64,000 nucleotides of DNA from Nocardioides aromaticivorans (GTDB lineage: Bacteria > Actinomycetota > Actinomycetes > Propionibacteriales > Nocardioidaceae). Shown one piece after another: positions 10,788-16,428 of the stretch (the stretch's first letter is position 1; each line of letters opens with the position of its first letter). A model generated the notes under the pieces. That model was given only the letters and a program-made list of their open reading frames with translations. It was not told the origin of the DNA and did not search any database. The position numbers and the translations under genes are program-made. The stretch lies in contig NZ_JACBZM010000001.1 in NCBI RefSeq assembly GCF_013408525.1, forward strand, positions 434,001 to 498,000, in the 5' to 3' direction.

Positions 10788-11501
10788 TCAGCCTGCGCTG
10801 ACCCGCGTCCCGATCTTCTCACCCCGGACCACCCGAAGGATGTTGCCCTCCGGCTCCATGCCGAAGACGATCATCGGGAGCTTGTTCTCCCCGCAGAGCG
10901 CGAACGCGGTCTGGTCCATGATCCGCAGGCCCTTCGAGATGGCCTCGTCGTAGCTGAGCTCGTCGTACTTGGTGGCCGTCGGGTCGACCTTGGGGTCGGC
11001 GGTGTAGACGCCGTCGACGCCGCTCTTCGCCACGAGGACGACATCGCACTTGCTCTCGAGCGCGCGCTGGACGGCGACGGTGTCGGTCGAGAAGTAGGGC
11101 ATGCCCATGCCGGCGCCGAAGATCACGACGCGGCCCTTCTCCATGTGCCGGATCGCGCGGCGCGGGATGTAGGGCTCGGCGACCTGGCCCATCGTGATGG
11201 CGGTCTGCACGCGGGTCTCGACGCCCAGCTTCTCCAGGAAGTCCTGGAGCGCCAGGCAGTTCATGACGATGCCGAGCATGCCCATGTAGTCGGCACGGAC
11301 GCGGTCCATGCCCCGCTGCTGGAGCTCGGCACCGCGGAAGAAGTTGCCGCCGCCCGTCACCACGGCGATCTGGACGCCCGCGTCCACGACCGCCTTGATC
11401 TCGCGGGCGATCGCCTGCACGACGTCGGGATCGACGCCGACCTTGCCTCCGCCGAAGACCTCACCCGAGAGCTTCAGCAGGACTCGCTTGTAACCGGGCA
11501 C
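10788..11501 (-). CDS. pyrH: UMP kinase
   Basis: A hexameric bacterial UMP kinase (amino-acid kinase fold) making UDP. 237 residues. Signature parts: [15 protein letters not shown] at the start, [15 protein letters not shown], and [13 protein letters not shown] for the nucleotide pocket. GTG at 11501 is chosen because GGAAGGA lies 6 bases upstream and the family start ([13 protein letters not shown]) follows. In most actinobacteria pyrH follows tsf; here four cassette genes lie between, ending 41 bases before this start, so pyrH may be expressed from the cassette's transcript. Confidence 0.96.
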
Positions 11502-11542
11502 CAGGGTCCTTCCAGTCGTGTGCGGTGAGCGGTCCGAGGTTA

Positions 11543-12712
11543 TCAGTGACCCTCGCCGGCAGCGCGTTCGATGATCGCGTCGTACCAGCGCACGTAGCGG
11601 CGCCACGATCCCCGGTCGGGCGCGATCTCGAGCGCCAGCTCGTCGCGCGGCAGGGAGTCCGACCCGAAGTTGTCGCTGCCGGTGATGACCCGGCGGTGCC
11701 GGGCACCGTCGGCCGCGGTCCACTCGAGCAGGCTGAGCTTGCTGTGGACGTCGTTGCCGTTGCGGAACCGCGCGCTGTGCACCTCCACGCCGGCCGCCCG
11801 CAGGCTGGCCACGATCTCCTTGCCGATGTTCAGCGAGATGACCTGCACCCGGGCTCCGCCGCGGGCCTTGTCCGCCACGATCTCCGCCAGCCGGCGGCCG
11901 CGCTCGCTGTGCCAGGCGTACATCGCGAAGCGCAGCACCGTGCCGCGGGCCGGCAGGTCGCGGAGCAACGCCTGGACGGGGTCGGTCTCCTCGTCCCAGC
12001 CGGGGAAGAACCACGCCCGGTCCCTGCCGAGCACCGGCGCGTAGCCGGGGCCCCGGGGCTTTTCGATCCCGACCTGGTCGCGGAAGTCGCGGTCGAAGGC
12101 CCGCCACACGTCGGTCCGGTCGACGAAGACGTACATGTCGCTGTACTGCTGGGTGGAGTAGTAGGACAGGTTCGCGGAGCCGACCATCACGACGTGGCGC
12201 GAGTCGCCGACCCGGCTGAAGGTCCAGGTCTTCTGGTGCGTGCCGGTCCGCGGGCCCCGCCGCGAGCCGCTCGACAGGTAGATGAAGGAGTCCTTGCGCC
12301 GGTCGGTGCCGACCTCGTCCCTCATCTTCGCGACCGCGCGGAAGCTCTTCGACGCGAACCGGTTGGCGATGATCTGCACCGAGACGCCCCGCTGGTGGGC
12401 GTCGACCAGCGCGTCCGCGACGGGGTGCAGCGAGAACGACCGGGTGATGATCCGGATCCGCTCCCCCTTCGGGGTGTGGGCGATCAGCTCCAGGAGCCGG
12501 GCGACCACCGGGTGCTCGGCCGCCTGGGTCTCCGTGTCGTCCACCGGCGTCCCGAGTACGACGCCCGGCCGGACGTCGTACGGACCGGGGACGAGGCCCG
12601 CGGGCTGGTCTCCGCGGGGCTCGTCGGAACGGGCATCGGTGCAGGCCGTGACGAGGAGCAGGGCTGCCAGCAGGGGCCCGAGAAGCCGGCAGACGCGCTC
12701 ACGCGCGCTCAT
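11543..12712 (-). CDS. PLD-like secreted lipoprotein
   Basis: A 389-residue predicted lipoprotein: charged start, hydrophobic stretch, then lipobox LVTAC with the cysteine at about residue 24. Two phospholipase-D-type half sites follow: THQKTWTF with downstream GSANLSYY, and [10 protein letters not shown] with [10 protein letters not shown]. Both keep the HxK pair but lack the canonical aspartate (Ser and Glu at that position), as in many divergent PLD-superfamily members. It would act on phosphodiester bonds at the outer membrane surface; the substrate is unknown. Its start overlaps the preceding small gene by 4 bases, making it the last gene of the SPFH cassette. Confidence 0.8.
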
Positions 12713-12981
12713 TGGACCCGCTGGACCCGCTCGCGGTAGTCGTCGCTGTTGTCACCGTCGATGTCGGGGTCCGTGGTCTTCGAGATGTGGTCGACCTTCT
12801 CCTCGCCGCCCTGCACCGGCTGGGCCTCGATGATCGTGTCGCGCTCGTAGGCGTGGGACTTGTCGGTGTTGCGGTAGTAGCGGTAGATCAGCCAGTACGT
12901 GCCGGCCGCGCCGGCCGGCCCTGCCGCGAGCAGCCAGACCAGTCCGTCGTCACTGGCCATCGCGATCAGCTGGGCGATCAT
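12709..12981 (-). CDS. Small single-TM protein of the SPFH cassette
   Basis: A 90-residue protein with one clear transmembrane helix ([20 protein letters not shown], residues about 13-32), followed by a Tyr/Arg-rich juxtamembrane RYYRNT and a strongly acidic tail with DPDIDGDNSDD. Both ends overlap neighbours by 4 bases (zinc-ribbon gene upstream, PLD gene downstream), so it is an integral cassette member. No family is recognised; a role as a membrane adaptor is inferred from context only. Confidence 0.75.
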   Translation of the reverse strand: MIAQLIAMASDDGLVWLLAAGPAGAAGTYWLIYRYYRNTDKSHAYERDTIIEAQPVQGGEEKVDHISKTTDPDIDGDNSDDYRERVQRVQ

Positions 12982-14246
12982 GCGGACGCCACCAGGATCG
13001 AGCCGGCGATGCCCTCGAGGAAGGTGCCGACCGTGAACGCCGCGAGCAGCAGCTTGGGCTGTGAGACCGGGATGCTGCCCATCGTCTCCCCCGTCCGCGC
13101 GTTGACCGCGATGTAGTGCAGGAGGCCGTTGCTCTCCTGCTGGTAGGAGTAGAGCCACACCGGGAGGTACATCGACACCCAGCGCGATCCGCCGACGTCG
13201 ACCTTCTCCTGCTCCCACCGCACGCCGCGGTCGAACCGGCCGAGCGAGGCGTGCACCTGCGAGCGGCCGATCGAGAGGAGCTGGTCCTCGAGGACCGGCT
13301 TGACCGCCTCGACGTTGAGGTCGCGCTTCTCGCTGGTGAAGCCGACGAGGTAGCTGGCGTTCCACTTCACGGCGTTCTTCGTGTCGAACGGCAGGATCGA
13401 GTTGACGATGTTGTTGGTGTTCGCGGTGCCGAACTGCGCGCGCTCCGAGGAGCCCTCGACGGTGAGGTCGTCGACGGTGAAGCTGACCTGGCGCGTGACC
13501 TGGTAGATGTCGGCGGCGTAGTAGGTCGTCGTGCGCTTGTTGTCCCCGCTGCCCGTCGTCTCGGTCCAGCGTCGGGTCTGGACCTCGCCCTTGCCCCAGT
13601 ACTGCGACTCGGCGCGGGCGTCGATGACCAGGTAGGGCAGGTAGACACCCAGGACGTTCTCCGGCACGAACTCCTTCTTGAACCGGCGGTGCGCGAACAG
13701 CCGACGGCTGCCCGCGAAGGCGCGGATCTTCTCGACCGCCTCCTCCTTGGTGAGCCGGAACGGCAGGACCGCGTCGGGTACGGCGCCGTTGGGGATCTGC
13801 TGGTTGACGTTCAGCGTGTGCCGGCACCAGTGGCAGCGGGCGTTGAGCGCGTGCGCGGTGTCGACGACGACCTCGGCCCCGCAGGCCTCGCACTTGAAGG
13901 TGAGCACGTCGCTGGCGTCGGCCCGGATGTCCTCCGCGCCGCTGGCGATGACCGTGCCCTCGAGCTCGTCGATGCCCTCACCGAGGCCGAACTCCTCCTC
14001 GACCCGCGCCTCGTGCCACTCGTTGCGGCAGAACAGGCACACCAGCATCCCGGTCGACGCGCGCAGCTGGACGTCGGTCGAACCGCACTTCGGGCACCTG
14101 TTGAGGCCGTCCTTGAGCGACTCGTTGACGGTCTCGATGCTGGGCCCCGCCTCTGGCTCGGCCTTGGCCGCGGCCAGCTCCTCCTCGAGCGACAGCGGCG
14201 GACCGTCGAAGGTCGGCTGCTGCGGCTCCACCGGCTCCTGCGTCAC
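12978..14246 (-). CDS. Double zinc-ribbon membrane protein (YdjG-like)
   Basis: A 422-residue protein with two N-terminal zinc ribbons: CPKCGSTDVQ...CLFCRNEW (about residues 46-70) and CEACGAEV...CHWCRHTL (about 110-135). The following region, with VLPFRLTKEEAVEKI and GVYLPYLVIDA, resembles the TFIIB-type zinc-ribbon proteins related to B. subtilis YdjG. The C-terminus is hydrophobic (LLLAAFTVGTFLEGIAGSIL), suggesting membrane association. The GTG at 14246 overlaps the SPFH stop by 4 bases. In B. subtilis YdjG works with the SPFH protein YdjI in membrane stress; the same partnership here is inference. Confidence 0.8.
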   Translation of the reverse strand: MTQEPVEPQQPTFDGPPLSLEEELAAAKAEPEAGPSIETVNESLKDGLNRCPKCGSTDVQLRASTGMLVCLFCRNEWHEARVEEEFGLGEGIDELEGTVIASGAEDIRADASDVLTFKCEACGAEVVVDTAHALNARCHWCRHTLNVNQQIPNGAVPDAVLPFRLTKEEAVEKIRAFAGSRRLFAHRRFKKEFVPENVLGVYLPYLVIDARAESQYWGKGEVQTRRWTETTGSGDNKRTTTYYAADIYQVTRQVSFTVDDLTVEGSSERAQFGTANTNNIVNSILPFDTKNAVKWNASYLVGFTSEKRDLNVEAVKPVLEDQLLSIGRSQVHASLGRFDRGVRWEQEKVDVGGSRWVSMYLPVWLYSYQQESNGLLHYIAVNARTGETMGSIPVSQPKLLLAAFTVGTFLEGIAGSILVASA

Positions 14247-15445
14247 AGACCGAGCGCCTTCGCCTTCGCCGCGTCGTAGTCCTCCTGCGTGATGAGGCCG
14301 GCGTCGAGCATCTCCTTGGCGCGCTTGAGGACCGCCATCGGGTCCTCGGCGGCCGGGGCCGCCGGAGCTGCCGGAGCCGCCGGGGCGGCCGGGGCGGGAG
14401 CCGGGGCGGCGGGGGCCGGCGTGGCCGGCTGCTGGAGGCCACCGAGGCCCATCCCGCCCGTCGCCATGCCCATCCCGATCAGGCCGCCGGGACCGGCGTT
14501 CTCGCCCGCGGCCTCGATGCCCGCGGCGACCGACGCCTGCAGGTTGGAGTTGCCGCGCGAGCCGGACAGGGCGTCGGCACGCTGGACGTTCTTGAGCAGC
14601 TCGCGGGTGTTGGCGTCGTACTCGATGGAGACGAGGGCGACCTTGACGATCTCGAGGCCACGGTCGGTGCGCCACTGGTAGTTCTGCTCGACGGCGGCGG
14701 AGAGCGACTGGGCGAACCCGATCGAGTCCTGCTGGAGCCGGGTGATCCGGTTGCCCTTGGCAGGGTCGTTGGTGTACATCGAGAACGCCGGGGCCAGCGA
14801 GCCCACGACCTCGTTGAAGAGCTGCTCGCCCGCCGGGTTGTCGATGTCGGTGAAGTCGAACTGCTGGCGCCCGCCGATGACGTCGGCCGGGACGAAGTTG
14901 CGGATGAAGGTCAGCGGGTCGGTGATCTTCAGCGTGTAGGTGCCGCGGGTGATCGCGCCGACCTGGGTGTTGAGGAAGGCGTCGTCCCAGTAGATCTCCG
15001 ACTGGGTGCCGAACTTGTTGTTGGGCAGCTCCTTGAGCGTCACGAAGATCGCGGACTGCTGGGCGGACGGGCGACCGCCGAACTTGAAGCGCTCCCAGCT
15101 CTGCTTGATGATCGAGTCGACCAGCCCGCCGCCGGTGAAGACCGACTGCGAGGCCGGGTCGTCGGAGTTCCAGATGTAGGCGCCCGGCTCGGCGGCGAAG
15201 CCCGTGAAGGCGCCGTCCTCGAGCAGCACCAGCCCGTAGCCCTCCGGCACGATGATCTTGGAGCCGTTCGTGATCACGCCCTCGGAGCCCTGCGTGTTGC
15301 TGCCGCGGCCGGCGTTCTGGCCCTTCGCGACCGCGGGGAAGACCGCAACCGTCGAGCCGACGCCGTCCGGGACGCCGTAGAAGTCGACCCACTGGTCGGC
15401 GAGCGTGCCGCCGATCGCGCCGACAGCAGCCTGGATGAGTCCCAC
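14243..15445 (-). CDS. SPFH-domain protein with C-terminal SHOCT motif (YdjI-like)
   Basis: A 400-residue protein of the virion-core/YdjI type of SPFH (band 7) proteins, which scaffold membrane microdomains. The SPFH body covers about residues 50-310 (VPEGYGLVLLEDG, ITDPLTFIRNFVPADV, VALVSIEYDANTRELL). An Ala/Pro linker follows, then a SHOCT-like end (MAVLKRAKEMLDAGLITQED). GTG at 15445 is preferred because AAAGGAGA lies about 7 bases upstream. B. subtilis YdjI instead ends in a zinc ribbon; here the ribbons are on the next gene. It is the first gene of a four-gene overlapping cassette, preceded by the tsf terminator, so it probably has its own promoter. Confidence 0.85.
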   Translation of the reverse strand: MGLIQAAVGAIGGTLADQWVDFYGVPDGVGSTVAVFPAVAKGQNAGRGSNTQGSEGVITNGSKIIVPEGYGLVLLEDGAFTGFAAEPGAYIWNSDDPASQSVFTGGGLVDSIIKQSWERFKFGGRPSAQQSAIFVTLKELPNNKFGTQSEIYWDDAFLNTQVGAITRGTYTLKITDPLTFIRNFVPADVIGGRQQFDFTDIDNPAGEQLFNEVVGSLAPAFSMYTNDPAKGNRITRLQQDSIGFAQSLSAAVEQNYQWRTDRGLEIVKVALVSIEYDANTRELLKNVQRADALSGSRGNSNLQASVAAGIEAAGENAGPGGLIGMGMATGGMGLGGLQQPATPAPAAPAPAPAAPAAPAAPAAPAAEDPMAVLKRAKEMLDAGLITQEDYDAAKAKALGL

Positions 15446-15494: not shown

Positions 15495-15508
15495 CGGACA
15501 CATGTCCG
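15495..15508. promoter_or_regulatory. Inverted repeat upstream of the SPFH cassette
   Basis: CGGACA-CA-TGTCCG is a perfect 6-bp inverted repeat with a 2-base spacer, 50 bases upstream of the SPFH start and between it and the tsf terminator. Its size and place fit an operator for the cassette, but no known regulator consensus is matched. Confidence 0.35.
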
Positions 15509-15554
15509 AAGCCGGGATCCACAAACCTACCCCGTGCGCCGCGACGGCACAGGC

Positions 15555-15602
15555 AAAAAGCCGACGGCCGGTGATCACCCCAGGGTGACCACCGGCCGTC
15601 GG
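15555..15602 (-). terminator. tsf intrinsic terminator
   Basis: A 19-bp stem (15561-15579 with 15584-15602, one A-C mismatch, 4-base loop) is followed on the minus strand by five T (15555-15559). It lies 17 bases after the tsf stop and ends the rpsB-tsf transcript before the SPFH cassette. Confidence 0.9.
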
Positions 15603-15618: not shown

Positions 15619-16428
15619 TCAGGCGCCGACCTCGAAGCGCGCGAAGCGCTTGACCGTCGTGCCGGCCTCGTCGAGGACGGCCTTGACCGTCTTCTTCGAC
15701 TCCGAGACCGACTCCTGCTCGAGGAGCACGAGCTCCTTGAAGAAGCCGCCCAGGCGACCCTCGACGATCTTGGCGACGGCAGCCTCGGGCTTGCCCTCCT
15801 CGATCGTCTTCTTGGTCAGGACGTCCTTCTCGGCCGCGACGATGTCCGCGGGGACCTCGTCGCGGGTGAGGTACTGCGCCTTGAGCGCGGCGACCTGCAT
15901 CGCGGCGCCACGGGCAGCGGCCTCGTCGCCGTCGTACTCGACGAGCACGCCGACGGCGGGCGGCAGGTCGGCCGCACGCTTGTGCAGGTAGACCGCGACC
16001 GGGCCGTCGAAGTACGCGACGCCGCCGAGCTCGATCTTCTCGCCGATGGTGATGGCGAGGTTCTCGACCACCTGGCCGACGGTGCTGTCGCCCAGCGGCA
16101 GCGCCTTGGCGGCCTCGGTGTCGGTGGCCTTGCCCGCGTCGACCGCCTCGGCGATCTGCTGGGCGGCCTTGATGAACTCCTCGTTCTTCGCGACGAAGTC
16201 GGTCTCCGACTTCAGCTCGATGAGCGCGCCGCCGGCGTTGGCCACGAGACCGGCCGAGGTCTCGCGCTCGGCGCCGCGGGCGGCCGCCTTGGCGGCGCCC
16301 TTGACGCGGAGCAGCTCGACGGCCTTGTCGAAGTCGCCGTCGGTCTCGTCGAGCGCCTTCTTGCAGTCCATCATTCCGGCGCCGGTCAGCTCGCGGAGCT
16401 TCTTGACGTCAGCAGCAGTGAATGCCAT
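15619..16428 (-). CDS. tsf: Translation elongation factor Ts
   Basis: Guanine-nucleotide exchange factor for EF-Tu. 269 residues, typical for actinobacteria. It starts [20 protein letters not shown], followed by the EF-Ts signatures [16 protein letters not shown] and [12 protein letters not shown]. It follows rpsB closely (39-base gap) in the conserved rpsB-tsf operon and ends at a strong terminator. Confidence 0.98.

Follow-up and report, generated by a model that had tools for sequence, protein, structure and literature searches.

The 64,000-nucleotide stretch of Nocardioides aromaticivorans DNA analysed here (contig NZ_JACBZM010000001.1, positions 434,001 to 498,000; referred to below as the window) carries four overlapping genes, A to D, between two neighbours that we take, as in the original prediction, to be tsf and pyrH. 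The conserved unit among them is A-B-C and not the four genes: A encodes a putative SPFH protein with a SHOCT tail, B a double zinc-ribbon protein and C a small transmembrane protein. D was added locally and stands outside this unit. In our view A-B-C is likely to be a version of the YdjI/YdjG membrane-protection module that is complete in itself and works without PspA, with D as an unrelated lodger. Gene content, architecture, the co-conservation of the three genes, their varied genomic sites and the absence of PspA over cut-off, both from the window's genome and from 32 of 49 carrier genomes, all speak for this reading.

The conserved A-B-C unit

The arrangement of four overlapping genes after the tsf terminator and ahead of pyrH was confirmed by the coordinates (Table 1) and by three junctions of four bases each (A/B, GTGA; B/C, ATGA; C/D, ATGA). 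Scanning the species genome collection with a B alignment gave 454 relatives, and the results on trio loci refer to the best 80. In all 80, A, B and C were found together, with identities of 65-97% for A, 60-91% for B and 44-80% for C (contig ends truncate a few of the A matches). In 79 of these loci, no more than 376 bases separate A from B or B from C. The exception is L278, with 1.94 kb and two genes between A and B; these two genes are related to each other, have a zinc-ribbon-like N-terminal start, and one is AIM24-like (PF01987, E 8.5e-17).

Carriers of the trio were found in the Actinomycetota (Nocardioides, Pimelobacter, Aeromicrobium, Leucobacter and other Microbacteriaceae) and in the Pseudomonadota, Xanthomonadales among them (Stenotrophomonas, Lysobacter, Pseudoxanthomonas, Xanthomonas, Dokdonella, Rhodanobacter and Paenacidovorax). 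Within the genus Nocardioides the trio occupies the tsf-pyrH gap, the interval between gcvP-side genes and a TldD-family gene (three genomes) and other sites, with A, B and C together. Of 396 genomes sampled across the phylum, 12 matched a B profile; the match was strong in two, G169 and the genome of the window. In a midpoint-rooted tree of A and B, the 41 Pseudomonadota rows form one group (support 92) next to the Actinomycetota rows, which makes a transfer of A-B-C between the phyla likely. The same tree contains two separate A-B-C lineages within the genus and places G083 beside the other genus cassettes of its lineage, irrespective of whether these lie in the gap or elsewhere.

The A protein matches Pfam Band_7_1 over cut-off as well as SHOCT, and has no clear transmembrane segment. 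A search of solved structures by sequence gave nothing for A at E≤1. When its structure model, which is of low confidence (mean predicted local distance difference test score, pLDDT, 53.9), was searched with Foldseek, SPFH proteins took ranks 1 to 4. The ten matches at E≤0.001 were chains of nine SPFH-protein entries, one of them listed only as an aquaporin bound to stomatin, and a vault cage, with low template-modelling scores. Together, the Pfam matches and the Foldseek ranks of this poor model suggest that A is an SPFH protein. No flotillin domain or NfeD match was found with Pfam in A, B or C at E≤1, so that the trio does not correspond to a flotillin/NfeD pair.

In B, the eight zinc-ribbon cysteines (C51, C54, C70 and C73; C119, C122, C138 and C141) are invariant in 26 of 26 sequences, that of Enterococcus included, although the Pfam zinc-ribbon matches all stay below cut-off. 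A hydrophobic segment lies near residues 399-419. Solved structures retrieved by sequence for B were only zinc-ribbon fragments (E 0.036 or worse), and the B model was too poor for a fold search.

The resemblance of A and B to YdjI and YdjG of Bacillus subtilis, as proposed in the original prediction, is supported by an Enterococcus gallinarum operon (NZ_CP116511.1, L034) annotated as SPFH, hypothetical and TPM genes, in which Pfam recognised Band_7_1, a zinc ribbon and TPM, respectively. BLASTP aligned A with the SPFH protein of this operon (34% identity over 338 columns, E 8e-55) and B with its YdjG-like protein (27% over 388 columns, E 4e-38). The trio therefore has an SPFH protein homologous over most of its length to the Firmicutes one, with Band_7_1 over cut-off in both, and a partner with a double zinc ribbon and a C-terminal transmembrane segment; Band_7_1 also matches in the B. 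subtilis control genome. No annotated PspA stands beside the Enterococcus operon in the 12.8 kb shown. The record is labelled a plasmid and carries dnaX, recR, tmk and rplL, and it looks like a piece of chromosome.

C is the small acidic transmembrane protein that had been described from the sequence, with 90 residues, one transmembrane segment and a net charge of -7. In 21 aligned sequences (some trimmed to the matched stretch) 21 columns are invariant, among them a block just after the transmembrane segment (R34, Y36, R37, N38, D40, K41 and S42). No Pfam family was found for C itself or its homologues, two of 21 members touching COX14 at E 0.049 or worse. C has no similarity to the Enterococcus TPM protein and hence does not qualify as a TPM-domain membrane protein of the YdjH kind. 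A C profile was found in all six SHOCT-type loci and in none of 14 GYF-type or Firmicutes-like loci (six of the 14 extend only 1.5 kb past B, and L035 has no B match), and C therefore goes with the SHOCT-type A. This unannotated, highly conserved family merits a name. Among the titles and abstract openings listed from a mostly open-access literature, none names the A-B-C trio, protein C or a loss of PspA in Nocardioides.

PspA and the proposed role of A-B-C

The absence of pspA that had been noted at the locus extends to the whole 5.26-Mb genome, in which PF04012 (PspA) gave no match at E≤0.001; the same search was positive in 9 of 14 named genomes. The window's genome hence lacks the PspA/LiaH-family client that is part of the YdjI/YdjG module. 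Across the genus, PF04012 was absent at this threshold from 22 of 118 genomes (G124 and G136, two unlisted genomes, were counted as PspA-less by elimination), and the other 96 matched at E 2.6e-22 or better. All 17 genomes with A-B-C in the tsf-pyrH gap are without PspA, and all 15 with a strong B elsewhere have it (Fisher 1.8e-9 on raw counts). A tree built from rpsB, tsf, frr and cdsA, markers that are linked to the site, shows four changes of the gap cassette and six of PspA; among four independent pairs the PspA change matches in two to three and opposes in none (p 0.25-0.5). As only two to three events are independent, the association is not significant, and a statistical proof of a link between the gap cassette and pspA loss was rejected despite the perfect raw counts. 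A simple rule is also contradicted by G020, G025, G027, G029 and G124, which have neither PspA nor A-B-C in the gap (in G029, A lies at a contig end outside the gap). G083, a distant gap carrier on a long branch, is likewise without PspA, and five of six carriers of the GYF-type gap cassette described below retain it.

A syntenic proof of pspA loss was sought and set aside. Genes flanking pspA in a relative were searched for in stretches of the window's genome and of G002, G025, G027, G083, G084 and G124. The stretches of G083 yielded a single flanking gene, and those of G002, G025, G027, G084 and the window's genome yielded none. In G124 the flanking genes lie 1.2 kb apart, and pspA and its near neighbours are missing.

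Membrane protection is the natural reading, and this part of the membrane repair or defence module that had been hypothesised is kept, while defence and the membership of D find no support. In the mechanism we propose, C, with one transmembrane segment, its N-terminus outside and the conserved basic/aromatic block just inside, would together with the transmembrane segment of B anchor A to the inner face of the membrane. There A, an otherwise soluble SPFH protein, may form an oligomeric ring or cage; protein docking could fall to its SHOCT tail and to the pair of zinc ribbons in B. The assembly would directly organise and fluidise stressed membrane patches instead of being a landing platform for PspA. 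Mutual binding of A, B and C and the topology of C are predicted, and the membrane-protective effect is suggested by analogy with YdjI, YdjG and YdjH of B. subtilis (PMC8581546). A bolder version, which we hold tentatively and with more doubt than belief, makes A-B-C a complete stand-in for PspA, an SPFH cage held by a new family of one-transmembrane proteins (C) and able to guard the membrane by itself; after it had settled between tsf and pyrH in the translation and lipid-synthesis cluster, pspA would have become dispensable and been lost, apparently at least twice in the genus.

Several points weigh against a PspA-independent A-B-C module. The trio counts rest on the best 80 of 454 B relatives, and the structure models of B (mean pLDDT 50.5) and A are both poor. 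Beyond the genus sample, the PspA count covers 49 A-B-C genomes, eight of them Nocardioides or Pimelobacter, with L242 outside it; PspA passes the cut-off in 17 of the 49 and reaches E≤0.001 in 20. Drafts or metagenome-assembled genomes (MAGs) of unstated completeness make up many of these, and since several carriers are such MAGs, some PspA absences may be assembly gaps. Because the B. subtilis module serves PspA, a PspA encoded elsewhere could still be the client.

The last point leads to an alternative in which A-B-C recruits PspA like the usual modules, the PspA gene lying elsewhere in the genome or being too diverged to be recognised. YdjI, YdjG and YdjH do recruit PspA in B. subtilis (PMC8581546), and a PspA gene is present in the 17 carriers just mentioned and in every genus member with a strong B outside the gap. 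Nevertheless, we regard this as unlikely, given that PspA over cut-off is missing from 32 of the 49 carriers and that, within the genus, the search separated 96 clear matches from 22 genomes with none, that of the window included.

Still less probable, in our view, is a small platform for protein assembly or turnover, akin to HflK/C or to chaperones, that has no particular part in membrane stress. SPFH proteins have been discussed as scaffolds and chaperones (PMC11237479), and HflK/C cages are among the Foldseek matches of the poor A model. The promoter-like blocks of the cassettes also fit such a platform. Besides the -10-like block upstream of A (Table 1), a TANNNT box (TAACCT in the window) was seen by eye after the last cassette gene and before pyrH in the 17 named gap loci, and 30 of 40 Pseudomonadota loci have TATANT ahead of A; judged by consensus matches, these blocks look like housekeeping promoters rather than known stress promoters. 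On the other hand, the relatives for which data exist act in membrane stress (PMC8581546), and no widely recurring neighbour stands beside the trio: among open reading frames of at least 80 aa within 4.5 kb, the commonest recurs in 5 of the 50 non-Nocardioides loci (6 of 50 with a looser overlap rule).

The leader of A also contains the perfect CGGACA-n2-TGTCCG repeat that had been pointed out. The repeat is present, but its kind is common: perfect 6+6 repeats with 2-base spacers number 61 across the window, where about 46 are expected, and the CGGACATGTGTCGG of relatives has no perfect dyad. As an operator the palindrome was therefore set aside, although its sequence is partly conserved and this role is not wholly excluded. 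RNAalifold gave no pairs on the Nocardioides A leader. In 38 of 40 aligned Pseudomonadota loci (L234-L281), a leader dyad of the CGGGCA-n-TGCCCG type lies about 25-45 bases upstream of A. For this dyad RNAalifold gave six pairs, each with at least one pair-keeping double change, and a small covariation term (-0.3); it may be an RNA hairpin or a DNA operator.

Gene D and the tsf-pyrH gap

Table 1. Positions in the window of genes A to D, their neighbours and nearby signals.
Feature	Position	Strand	Description
Gene A	14243..15445	minus	SPFH (Band_7_1) and C-terminal SHOCT; 400 aa; GTG start
Gene B	12978..14246	minus	Two zinc ribbons, long conserved middle, C-terminal hydrophobic segment; 422 aa; GTG start
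Gene C	12709..12981	minus	Single-transmembrane protein, core member of the trio; 90 aa; ATG start
Gene D	11543..12712	minus	Predicted PLD-superfamily lipoprotein; local addition outside the conserved unit; 389 aa; ATG start
tsf	15619..16428	minus	Upstream neighbour (context)
pyrH	10788..11501	minus	Downstream neighbour (context)
tsf intrinsic terminator	15561..15602	minus	19-pair stem, then CTTTTTGCCT; strong
GTAGGTTTG	15522..15530	minus	-10-like block upstream of A (consensus match); exact in 10 of 17 gap cassettes, by eye
CGGACA-n2-TGTCCG	15495..15508	minus	Palindrome named in the original prediction; 6 of 17 relatives have an imperfect CGGACATGTGTCGG here
TAACCT	11537..11542	minus	-10-like box before pyrH, directly after the D stop codon (consensus match)

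The tsf-pyrH gap could be read in 110 of the 118 genus genomes; outside this count are G004, G096 and G132, which gave no tsf match, and G018, G069, G090, G110 and G135. In 82 of the 110 the gap is empty (46-317 bp). A-B-C was found in 17, a two-gene GYF-type cassette of SPFH and YdjG-like genes in six, and a D-like gene alone in three (G029, G089 and G128). Together with the window's genome, where D adjoins A-B-C, and G077, where a D-like gene lies on the tsf side of a GYF-type cassette, five gaps contain a D-like gene. The gap of G017 measures 730 bp, and that of G027 (L090) is occupied on the opposite strand by MarR and isochorismatase genes and by an MFS gene that lies in two frames. The gap is thus permissive, with D as one of several tenants. 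Gap cassettes start after tsf, and in the window a terminator intervenes; insertion between this terminator and the predicted pyrH promoter would explain why guests are tolerated.

Two further observations concern the site itself. The pyrH genes of the genus (e.g. L061 and L062) fall into two classes of identity to the window's pyrH, about 68-71% and 74-97%, which do not track tsf (in G025, tsf is 91% and pyrH 69% identical); this suggests a replacement of pyrH. In addition, 28 of the 82 empty gaps (L062, L093, L103 and L080, i.e. G025, G006, G010 and G100, and others) contain GGAGGCCGG followed by ATG. In the cases viewed, GGAGGCCGG is the 5′ half of a hairpin, closed by CATCGGACCGGCC. Within this hairpin lie a ribosome site and the ATG that opens a short open reading frame, and the whole resembles a leader switch before pyrH. 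Four empty-gap loci gave no Rfam match at the gathering threshold.

The D protein matches Pfam PLDc_2 (E 4.6e-18) and starts with a hydrophobic stretch ending in VTAC, which we take to be a lipobox. The HKD signature of the PLD superfamily consists of two HxK(x4)D..GSxN motifs and includes an Asp. With the other PLDc_2 lipoproteins of the genus, D shares HxK and GSxN/GSDN, which are present in both halves of 8 of 8 aligned D-like proteins (one a paralog). The D-like proteins do not keep the Asp, which in D is replaced in both halves, whereas H, K, G, S and N are retained. No solved structure was found for D by sequence at E≤0.01. A role in anti-phage defence, raised in the original prediction, was rejected: PADLOC returned nothing for A or C, one marginal match for B (E 0.008) and weak DrmC matches for D (E 6e-6), and D scores 23.3 bits against an NCBI cut-off of 133, so that it does not qualify as DISARM DrmC.

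That D would complete a single system reaching from the cytoplasm to the outside did not survive the co-occurrence check. D adjoins A-B-C in one of the 80 best B relatives, Nocardioides sp. J54; of the 17 gap cassettes in the genus survey, that of the window's genome alone has D beside it. Because D so rarely adjoins the trio and stands in the gap without an SPFH cassette, the four-gene unit fails. One inside-to-outside repair or defence system of A-B-C-D is therefore very improbable: all four genes overlap, Nocardioides sp. J54 has the same A-B-C-D-pyrH order with a D that is 77% identical, and some proteobacterial PspA, band-7 or flotillin operons include a PLD-superfamily gene (PMC11237479), but the two gaps in which D-like and SPFH genes co-reside compare with about 1.0 of 110 expected by chance (23 SPFH x 5 PLD / 110), D lies on the tsf side of the SPFH genes in one of these gaps and on the pyrH side in the other, and three D-like genes live there alone.

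Relation to known modules

In B. subtilis, the pspA-ydjGHI operon encodes YdjI, which depends on YdjG and YdjH for its membrane location and recruits PspA to the same place; YdjH has been proposed as the anchor, the protein contacts and membrane recruitment of the three proteins are known, and deletion of ydjI lowers membrane fluidity (PMC8581546). YdjG combines a double zinc ribbon with a transmembrane segment, and YdjH is a TPM protein (PMC11237479). Judged via the Enterococcus operon, A-B likewise joins an SPFH protein and a double zinc-ribbon transmembrane protein in one operon. In contrast to B. subtilis, the window's A-B-C has no pspA in its operon or genome; A ends in SHOCT and not in the C-terminal zinc ribbons of the Firmicutes module, and C stands in the place of TPM/YdjH.

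The divergent GYF-type cassette, found in the gaps of G008, G020, G076, G077, G119 and G138, has Band_7_1 and GYF_2 over cut-off in all six (in G138 the YdjG-like gene is in two frames). It shares with A-B the SPFH and YdjG-like pair and the tsf-pyrH gap, but has a GYF_2 tail instead of SHOCT, no C gene and a B that is 24-33% identical. From domain content, there appear to be three variants of the module: a SHOCT type with C, a GYF type without C, and a Firmicutes type that has TPM and in which the SPFH protein ends in zinc ribbons.

The kind of band 7 domain present in A is the most frequent companion of SHOCT (PMC3581485). The Band_7_1–SHOCT proteins of that source have the same architecture as A, and its available part does not describe the partners B and C. 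Ravi et al. 2024 (PMC11237479) list Band-7, zinc-ribbon and SHOCT domains among PspA partners and describe operons in which PspC, Toastrack and flotillin-type proteins occur without PspA. They also report a polyamine-gene operon where a band-7 protein with two transmembrane segments and SHOCT replaces a CesT/Tir-PspA pair, a precedent for a band-7–SHOCT protein in the place of PspA that weighs against full novelty of A-B-C. In the part of this catalogue available to us, SPFH–YdjG-type operons are tied to pspA in Firmicutes, and A-B-C or C is not mentioned.

The best-studied SPFH/YdjG module is a helper that brings PspA to the membrane, whereas A-B-C is widely shared, often PspA-free and equipped with a small protein of its own. 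It makes membrane protection by SPFH proteins on their own testable, and the genus offers natural comparisons among species with PspA and A-B-C, with PspA but no A-B-C, and with A-B-C but no PspA.

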